NCBI RefSeq assembly: GCF_041821045.1
Contig: NZ_JBGUAW010000007.1
Location: 124,001 to 188,000 of the forward strand
DNA length: 64,000 bases
Source of the DNA: Thiohalorhabdus sp. Cl-TMA
GTDB lineage: Bacteria; Pseudomonadota; Gammaproteobacteria; Thiohalorhabdales; Thiohalorhabdaceae
Reading direction: 5' to 3'
Part shown: positions 9,585 through 13,528 of the stretch, one piece after another
Layout: each line of letters opens with the position of its first letter
Position numbering within the stretch: the first letter of the stretch is position 1
Made by a program: the position numbers and the translations under genes
Notes under the pieces: model-generated
The model's input: the letters and a program-made list of their open reading frames with translations, nothing else
What the model was told of the DNA's origin: nothing
The model's database searches: none

Positions 9585-9786
9585 GTCTTCTCCTAAAGTA
9601 CGGGTCCTGCGCGTTCGGGGGGCAAGCCCACACGAGTCAGAGGACGAGTGGAGGTTACGAAATAAGCAATTGATATTCAGACAGGAAATTGTCCCGGAGA
9701 GTTCCCGGGCCCTACTATGCCGGGAGCCATCCTCCCGGAGCGTGGGTCCGGCGCGGGCGCTCCGGGCTCGCCGAATGGCGGCGAAT

Positions 9787-10862: not shown

Positions 10863-11502
10863 CCGCGTTTCCAAACGCTACGCCCAGGGCCATACGGCCC
10901 TGCAGGGCATCTCCCTGGAGCTGGAGCCCGGTTCCATGCATTTCCTCACCGGGCATTCCGGCGCCGGCAAGAGCACGCTCTTGAAGCTCGCCACGGCCAT
11001 GGAGCGGCCTTCCGGCGGCCGGATCTTCTTCGGCGACCAGGAGATCACCCGCATCCCGCGCCGCCGCGTTCCCCATCTGCGCCGCGCCATCGGCACGGTC
11101 TTCCAGGACCACAAGCTGCTGTACGACCGCACCGTGCACGAGAACGTGGCGCTGGCCCTGCGGGTGGCCAACTTTCCGCGGAACCGCATCCACGGGCGCG
11201 TCCAGGCGGTGCTCACCAAGGTGGGCCTGGAGGGGCACCAGAACAAGCTGCCCATCACCCTTTCCGGGGGCGAGCAGCAGCGGGTGGCCATCGCCCGCGC
11301 CCTCGTGAACAAACCCGACCTGCTGCTGGCGGACGAGCCCACGGGCAACCTGGACCAGGAGCTGGCCGACGAGATCATGGACCTGTTCTACGAGTTCCAC
11401 CAGTTCGGCATGACCGTGCTGGTGGCCACGCACGATCTCACACAGCCGAACCGGCTGGACCTGCCGCAGATCCGGCTCCAGCAGGGCCAGATGGCCGCCT
11501 GA
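10849..11502 (+). CDS. ftsE: Cell-division ABC transporter ATPase
   Basis: 217 residues. ATPase of the FtsEX complex, which acts on the divisome and, in other bacteria, on periplasmic murein hydrolase activators. Walker [10 protein letters not shown] (35-43), signature LSGGEQQ and Walker [13 protein letters not shown] are intact. The ATG at 10849, in frame with [11 protein letters not shown], was chosen over an upstream ATG at 10810 because it matches the family start. It overlaps ftsY by 14 bases and ftsX by one. Confidence 0.95.
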
Positions 11503-12419
11503 TGCTGCCCTTTACCCCGCTTCGCCAGCACCGCGAGATATTCCGCGAGGCGGCCGCCAACCTGGCCCGCCATCCGGGCAGCACGCTCCTCACCGTGCTG
11601 GTCCTGGCGGCGGCCATGGCCTTGCCGGCGGCCCTCATGCTGGTCACGGACAACCTGGAACGGCTGACCAGCCGCTTCGATGCCCCGGGCACCCTGAACG
11701 TCTTCCTCGCTTCGGAGACCGACCGACCGGTGGCGGACATCGAATCCCGGCTCCTTGGGCTCGACGACGTGGCATCCGTTTCCTACACCCCCCCGGACCA
11801 GGCACTCGAAGAGGCGGCCCGGCTCCTGGACCTGGGCGACGCCCTGGGCGGCCTGTCGGAGAACCCGCTGCCCGGGAGCTTCCGCGTGACCGTGGCCGCC
11901 GGCCGGCGCGGACCCGATCGGCTGGCGCGCCTGGCGGACAGCATCGGCGGCTGGCCGGGCGTGGATCGGGTCCAGTACGAGCGCCAATGGGTGGAGCGGT
12001 TTCAGGCTTCCGTGGGCTTTCTCCGGAGCGTGGGCAGCGTAACCGCCCTGCTCCTGGGAGGCGTGGTGGTGCTGGTCATCGGCAACACCATCCGCCTGGC
12101 GGTGGCGGCGCGGCGCAGGGAGATCGAGGTCATCAAGATGATCGGCGCCACCGACGCCTTCGTCCGCCTTCCCTTCCTCTACACGGGACTGCTGCAGGGG
12201 GCTCTGGCGGCCCTGGGGGCGTGCATCCTGGTAGCCGTGGCGCTGGGCTTCCTGGAAGGGGCCATCGCTGATCTGGCGTCCCAATACGGGGCCCGATTCA
12301 CCCTGGAGGGACCCGGCTTGCGCTATCTGGGCGCGCTACTTCTGGCCGGTGCCGGCCTCGGCTGGCTGGGCTCCCGCTTGGCGGTCGGCCGGCACCTTCG
12401 GGATATCGAGCCTGCCTAG
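11502..12419 (+). CDS. ftsX: Cell-division ABC transporter permease
   Basis: 305 residues with the FtsX layout: cytoplasmic N-terminus, TM1 at about 30-50, a periplasmic loop, and three TM segments in the C-terminal half (about 180-290). REIEVIKMIGATDAFVR is the conserved cytoplasmic loop contacting FtsE. The start codon shares one base with the ftsE stop (TGATG), so the two are translationally coupled. Confidence 0.93.
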   Translation: MLPFTPLRQHREIFREAAANLARHPGSTLLTVLVLAAAMALPAALMLVTDNLERLTSRFDAPGTLNVFLASETDRPVADIESRLLGLDDVASVSYTPPDQALEEAARLLDLGDALGGLSENPLPGSFRVTVAAGRRGPDRLARLADSIGGWPGVDRVQYERQWVERFQASVGFLRSVGSVTALLLGGVVVLVIGNTIRLAVAARRREIEVIKMIGATDAFVRLPFLYTGLLQGALAALGACILVAVALGFLEGAIADLASQYGARFTLEGPGLRYLGALLLAGAGLGWLGSRLAVGRHLRDIEPA

Positions 12420-12462: not shown

Positions 12463-12491
12463 CTTGAATTCGGCGGGACGAATCCCCATTT
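12463..12491 (+). promoter_or_regulatory. Sigma-32 (heat-shock) type promoter upstream of rpoH
   Basis: CTTGAAT (12463-12469), a 14-base spacer, then CCCCATTT (12484-12491). The heat-shock consensus is CTTGAAA-N11-16-CCCCATNT, so the -35 matches six of seven positions and the -10 matches throughout. This suggests positive autoregulation of rpoH. Expected leader about 160 bases. Confidence 0.65.
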
Positions 12492-12516
12492 TAGGAAAGA
12501 GTCCAATCCGTCCTCT

Positions 12517-12544
12517 GGAACTTCCTTCAGCCATCGGGCTCTAA
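12517..12544 (+). promoter_or_regulatory. Sigma-E (RpoE) type promoter upstream of rpoH
   Basis: GGAACTT (12517-12523) and TCTAA (12540-12544) with 16 bases between. The -35 is identical to the RpoE consensus and the -10 close to TCTGA/GTCTAA. E. coli rpoH also has an RpoE promoter, so envelope stress feeding into heat-shock sigma synthesis is plausible. Expected start near 12551, leader about 108 bases. Confidence 0.6.
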
Positions 12545-12658
12545 GAAAATACGACGGTGGCAGAAGGAGTTACGGAACCGCTTCCGGCCAGCCCGGCTGT
12601 AAGCCACCGAGGAAAAGAACCAGGAACTCGCTTCCCAACCAAGGGGGAGGTTTCGCCC

Positions 12659-13528
12659 ATGGCTTCCAAAAGCCTGGCACTCTCGATCGACGCCCATAGC
12701 GGCTCTCTAGAGAGCTATCTTTCCTACGTACGCCGGCTTCCTCTGCTCTCCTGGGAGGAGGAGCAGGATTACGCCCGCCGGTACCGTGGCGAGGAGGATC
12801 TCGAAGCCGCCCGTGCCCTGGTTCTGTCCCATCTCCGGGTGGTGGTGCGGATCGCGCGCGGCTACCAGGACTACGGACTGCCCTTCGCCGACCTGATCCA
12901 GGAAGGCAACATCGGCCTCATGAAGGCGGTGAAGAACTTCGATCCGGATCGCGGGGTGCGACTGGTGAGCTTCGCCGTGCACTGGATCCGGGCCGAGATC
13001 CACGAGTACATCCTGCGCAATTGGCGGATGGTGAAGGTCGCCACCACCAAGGCGCAGCGGAAGCTGTTCTTCAATCTCCGCAAGGCCAAGAAGCACCTCT
13101 CCTGGCTGTCCCGGGAGGAGGCCCGAGACATCGCCGAGGACCTGCAGGTCCCCGAGGAGCAGGTACTGAAAATGGACGCGGTGATGTCGCGCGGCGACCA
13201 GTCCCTCAACGAGCCCATCGGTGAGGACGAGGAAGGCGACACCCGGGTGGACATGCTCGCCGACGGCGGAGCCACCGTCGAGGAAGAGCTGGCCGAATCC
13301 GAACAGAAGCAGCGCACCGGTCAGGCCCTTTCGCGGGCCCTCGCCAACCTGGACGATCGCAGCCGCAATATCATTCAGCGCCGCTGGCTCGCCGAACAGC
13401 CGGCCACGCTCCAGGAGCTCGCCGATCAGTACGAGGTCTCCGCGGAGCGGGTTCGTCAGATCGAGCGCAAGGCGCTTACCAAGCTGCAGGGCCCCATCTC
13501 GGAGGCCATGGAGGCCGAAAACGGTTGA
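12659..13528 (+). CDS. rpoH: RNA polymerase heat-shock sigma factor (sigma-32)
   Basis: 289 residues. Regions 2.1-2.4 (about 50-125: DLIQEGNIGLMKAVKNFDPDRG, SFAVHWIRAEIHEYILRNWR) are followed by the RpoH box QRKLFFNLRK (133-142), which distinguishes RpoH from other sigma factors, and by a region 4 helix-turn-helix (TLQELADQYEVSAERVRQIERKA). ATG at 12659 follows AAGGGGGAGG by 8 bases; upstream in-frame starts lack a ribosome site. It follows ftsX with its own promoters and directs transcription of chaperones and proteases after heat shock. Confidence 0.96.
   Translation: MASKSLALSIDAHSGSLESYLSYVRRLPLLSWEEEQDYARRYRGEEDLEAARALVLSHLRVVVRIARGYQDYGLPFADLIQEGNIGLMKAVKNFDPDRGVRLVSFAVHWIRAEIHEYILRNWRMVKVATTKAQRKLFFNLRKAKKHLSWLSREEARDIAEDLQVPEEQVLKMDAVMSRGDQSLNEPIGEDEEGDTRVDMLADGGATVEEELAESEQKQRTGQALSRALANLDDRSRNIIQRRWLAEQPATLQELADQYEVSAERVRQIERKALTKLQGPISEAMEAENG

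Follow-up and report, generated by a model that had tools for sequence, protein, structure and literature searches.

Putative tandem sigma-32-type and sigma-E-type promoters upstream of rpoH in Thiohalorhabdus sp. Cl-TMA

Organization of the rpoH locus

The analysed stretch of Thiohalorhabdus sp. Cl-TMA DNA (the window, 64 kb) carries ftsY (9861), ftsE (10810), ftsX and rpoH, all on the + strand and in an order common to the window and E. coli. The features of the locus are listed in Table 1. The RpoH product scored 388 bits against the TIGR02392 equivalog model (cut-off 323). Its alignment to E. coli RpoH gave 51% identity, with the segment KVATTKAQRKLFFNLRK invariant and the regions binding the -10 and -35 elements nearly identical to their E. 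coli counterparts. The order to which the organism belongs comprises three genomes in total: that of the window (G000), G001 and G002. RpoH identity to the window's protein is 92% in G001 and 88% in G002, and both genomes keep the GGGGAGG of the Shine-Dalgarno-like site.

Table 1. Coordinates of rpoH, its upstream neighbour and the sequence elements of the intervening gap
Feature	Position in window	Strand	Remarks
ftsX, upstream neighbour of rpoH	11502-12419	+	TIGR00439
Sigma-32-type -35 element CTTGAAT	12463-12469	+	Consensus CTTGAAA; CTTGAAA in G001
Sigma-32-type -10 element CCCCATTT	12484-12491	+	Consensus CCCCATNT; spacer of 14 bases, shared with E. coli groE
Sigma-E-type -35 element GGAACTT	12517-12523	+	Identical in G001; GGAACTC in G002
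Sigma-E-type -10 element TCTAA	12540-12544	+	16-base spacer; identical in G001; CCTAA in G002
Shine-Dalgarno-like GGGGGAGG	12643-12650	+	8 bases 5' of rpoH ATG; read from sequence
rpoH, heat-shock sigma factor, 289 aa	12659-13528	+	ATG start; TIGR02392 equivalog

The rpoH leaders of all three genomes fold, but their structures differ and three sequences are too few for covariation analysis, so that an RNA thermosensor is not proposed. A palindrome, GGCTCTCTAGAGAGCT, lies within the coding sequence at 12701-12716 (codons 15-20 of rpoH), with GGCTCTCTGGAGAGCT retained at the corresponding place in G001; either a hairpin for translational control or a mere codon effect may lie behind it. Rfam matches at a permissive threshold consisted of eukaryotic microRNA and ribosomal-leader noise and were discarded.

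Promoter-like sites in the ftsX-rpoH gap

Both promoter-like sites lie inside the 239-base gap between ftsX and rpoH. The preliminary description had reported CTTGAAT-N14-CCCCATTT (12463-12491) and GGAACTT-N16-TCTAA (12517-12544), 25 bases apart; on re-reading, the two sites proved exact to the base and the 25 bases between them occupy 12492-12516. Scored against CTTGAAA and CCCCATNT with spacers of 12-16 bases, the upstream, sigma-32-like site agrees at 13/14 consensus positions with a spacer of 14. The sigma-E-like site is an exact match to GGAACTT/TCNNA, and its spacer of 16 falls within the 15-17 bases allowed. By the same sigma-32 scoring, the E. coli groE promoter reaches 13/14 and those of dnaK, clpP and lon 12/14.

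To estimate chance expectation, the sequence of the 239-bp gap was shuffled 5000 times with its dinucleotide composition preserved. The sigma-32 score of 13/14 was reached by two shuffles, the sigma-E score (10/10 with TCNNA) by eight, and the GGAACTT/TCTAA form by none. On both strands of the 64-kb window, the site at rpoH was the sole sigma-32 match of at least 12/14, with 0 matches in the reversed control. An independent weight matrix, which combined sites from E. coli with other sites of this genome but included no rpoH site, gave it a score of 23.1, compared with 16.4 for the next site on either strand of the window. In the same matrix it ranked first among 209 rpoH upstream regions, the next scoring 18.8.

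No sigma-70 promoter above chance was found in the gap, the best match being 8/12, a value equalled by 57% of shuffles. The terminator scan found no terminator-like site there, and the ftsX side is a possible source of read-through into rpoH.

Elsewhere in the window, a sigma-E-like sequence GGAACTC-N17-TCTGA (9/10) was noted at 9705 on the - strand, in the gap divergent with ftsY. It lies about 110 bases before a gene for an M16-type peptidase (start near 9596) and is possibly a second sigma-E target within the window.

Conservation within the order

Conservation of the two sites in relatives had been proposed as a check, and it gave a divided outcome in this order of three genomes. Both sites are kept in G001, where the four promoter elements are identical to those of the window at 24/27 positions (89%), versus 76/167 (46%) in the remaining gap (Fisher p = 2e-5). 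The sigma-32-type -10 of G001 is CCCCACCT, with one consensus T lost. In G002, a genome 82% complete in which the gap is much changed, no sigma-32 site was found (best match 9/14), and a weak sigma-E site, GGAACTC-N16-CCTAA, is retained before rpoH.

Sigma-32-type motifs and the sigma-E branch elsewhere in the genome

The strict motif CTTGA-N15-17-CCCCAT occurs in 13 copies genome-wide, compared with one for the reversed pattern. Five of these copies precede clpS-clpA, clpP, hsp20, a rubrerythrin gene and rpoH, and eight have no obvious heat-shock gene nearby. G001 likewise carries the strict motif at clpS-clpA, clpP, hsp20 and the rubrerythrin gene. A weaker site, GTTGAAA-N14-CCCCA, is found at grpE-dnaK in all three genomes of the order; in G002 the gene for HrcA lies immediately 5' of grpE.

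In the window's genome, the groESL operon is preceded by a perfect copy of CIRCE, the HrcA operator, of the form TTAGCACTC-N9-GAGTGCTAA, about 120 bases before groES (L112, G000:C3:41821-42099), and no sigma-32 site was found upstream of the operon. Sigma-32 would therefore cover only part of the heat response.

Two further sites were recorded. The strict sigma-32 site at the rubrerythrin gene (L048, G000:C4:117357-117383, - strand) is repeated in G001 (L043), and peroxide defence may therefore belong to the heat-shock regulon. The fxsA gene, upstream of groESL in the window's genome, has a GGAACTT-N16-TCTAA site.

The sigma-E branch is also encoded. RpoE of this genome scores above the TIGR02939 cut-off, and rpoE is followed by genes for RseA (RseA_N) and RseB (MucB_RseB).

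Survey of rpoH upstream regions across the class

The survey covered 209 rpoH upstream regions of Gammaproteobacteria, a class taken here to include the former Betaproteobacteria. In 72 of the 209 regions a sigma-E-like site scoring 10/11 or better was present, versus three in the reversed control. Sigma-32 sites of at least 12/14 precede eight rpoH genes, with 0 in the reversed controls. These eight regions belong to the window's genome and its sister G001, two Pseudidiomarina species and four other families. Within the family of genome G078, several congeners keep CTTGNAN-N13-NCCCAT at the same position before rpoH. With eight of 209 regions spread over several lineages, a sigma-32 site before rpoH is therefore recurrent but uncommon, and a general class-wide signal of this kind was rejected.

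CIRCE is far more frequent at this position and is the rule in the class, preceding rpoH in 151/209 regions (e.g., L136, L165, L210, L216, L231) versus 0 in controls. About 60 regions have GGAACTT, with at most one mismatch, 16-17 bases 5' of CIRCE, so that the sigma-E -10 element falls inside the left arm of the operator. In that position HrcA would lie over the sigma-E start, and where this overlap occurs it would be predicted to control the entry of both heat and envelope-stress signals at rpoH. E. coli is a poor yardstick, since such a heat-responsive operator is already present at rpoH in most relatives.

CIRCE was not found at rpoH in G000, G001 or G002, the best match having 7-9 mismatches. 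Since all three genomes of the order are without it, it is tempting to regard sigma-32 autoregulation as its replacement. Exclusion between a sigma-32 site and CIRCE at rpoH, counted with one genome per family (2/90/3/32), was not significant (Fisher p = 0.13), and the replacement idea is therefore only suggestive. CIRCE is absent at rpoH and kept at groESL; heat input to rpoH thus seems rewired. We tentatively propose, at slightly below even confidence, that the class-typical HrcA/CIRCE input, often overlapping the sigma-E promoter, was lost at rpoH, kept at groESL and replaced by a direct sigma-32 promoter. Relief of repression would thereby have given way to positive autoregulation; a few other lineages, Pseudidiomarina among them, may have undergone the same change independently.

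Proposed regulation of rpoH

In E. coli, the standard model of the heat-shock response, RpoH is controlled mainly after transcription, by an mRNA thermosensor and by DnaK/FtsH. A near-perfect sigma-32-type promoter at rpoH suggests that here RpoH, unlike that of E. coli, probably switches on its own gene. Judged from the DNA sequence, rpoH is likely to be served by two stress promoters in tandem, of which RpoH would read the upstream and sigma-E the downstream one. The earlier proposal that heat-shock autoregulation and envelope-stress input are combined at this gene is thus well supported in silico by the match, spacing and scores of the sites, their conservation in G001 and the occurrence of the motif at other heat-shock genes.

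From this arrangement we infer transcription of rpoH from both sites and its induction by both stresses. On heat, unfolded protein would draw DnaK off RpoH, and RNA polymerase carrying the freed RpoH would read the upstream promoter, with a predicted start near 12498, establishing positive feedback. Other targets of freed RpoH would be clpP, clpS-clpA and hsp20, with grpE-dnaK a probable addition; the chaperones so produced would in turn close the RpoH loop. Under envelope stress, degradation of RseA would release RpoE to act at the downstream promoter (putative start near 12551), so that envelope damage would also raise cytoplasmic heat-shock capacity. The positive loop would need basal RpoH, which low sigma-E activity or ftsYEX read-through may supply.

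An alternative that we consider unlikely is that the sigma-E promoter alone is active, the sigma-32-like sequence being a chance or decayed one and heat control being post-transcriptional as in E. coli. It would agree with the missing site in G002, with the 201/209 regions of the class without a sigma-32 site at 12/14 and with the strong folding of the rpoH mRNA leader and start, but it is difficult to reconcile with a sigma-32 score reached in so few shuffles, a conserved island in G001, the top rank of the window's site among the 209 regions and the same motif at clpP, clpS-clpA and hsp20. Less likely still is expression of rpoH mainly from a sigma-70 promoter or by ftsYEX read-through, with both stress sites minor: the E. 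coli-like ftsYEX-rpoH order and the terminator-free gap fit it, but the best sigma-70 match does no better than chance, and read-through, which this leaves unaffected, is compatible with two tandem promoters as their basal source.

If rpoH does carry two tandem stress promoters, direct self-activation combined with envelope-stress input would make the heat response faster and perhaps switch-like, with signals arriving from two compartments. As the survey suggests, most members of the class regulate rpoH transcription by heat and E. coli is exceptional in this respect; evolution also seems able to exchange HrcA and sigma-32 as the source of that heat input.

Comparison with known systems

Control of rpoH by sigma-E, already known from enterobacteria, is the ordinary half of the arrangement described here. 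In Salmonella, ChIP-seq found sigma-E binding at rpoH (PMC4577112).

The P3 promoter of rpoH in E. coli K-12 resembles the downstream site, with GAACTT-N16-TCTRA located some 120-140 bases upstream of the start codon and the same gene order. The contrast with E. coli drawn in the preliminary description holds, as rpoH there has the sigma-E site TGAACTT-N16-TCTGA and is without a sigma-32 site (best match 10/14, distant); it also has no CIRCE. The upstream site finds its closest E. coli likeness at groESL, where the promoter CTTGAAG-N14-CCCCATTT equals it in spacing and in its score of 13/14. However, that promoter drives a chaperonin and not a sigma factor gene, and groESL of the window's genome has CIRCE instead.

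One paper (PMC545781) predicts CIRCE before rpoH in Geobacter sulfurreducens and, for Desulfovibrio, weak sigma-32 sites upstream of the same gene. In the literature searched, CIRCE before rpoH was found for Geobacter sulfurreducens only; further cases may be given in the survey of beta-, gamma- and epsilon-proteobacteria that Permina and Gelfand published in 2003. The rpoH genes under predicted CIRCE/HrcA control, including those of the 151 regions found here, would share with the present locus a heat input to transcription. They differ in that HrcA exerts negative control, whereas the lineage of the window has no CIRCE at rpoH.

The literature searched yielded no case of sigma-32 and sigma-E promoters combined at a gammaproteobacterial rpoH. 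Autoregulation by sigma-32 taken alone is no novelty for this gene, being known from Caulobacter, where, as far as the citing account relates, rpoH is positively autoregulated by sigma-32 (Wu and Newton 1997, cited in PMC5745026). On that account the likeness is close: rpoH would in both cases be transcribed by its own product, with positive feedback on heat shock. Caulobacter, however, is an alphaproteobacterium, whereas the organism studied here belongs to the Gammaproteobacteria and has the ftsYEX-rpoH order, with a putative sigma-E promoter 25 bases downstream of the sigma-32-type site.
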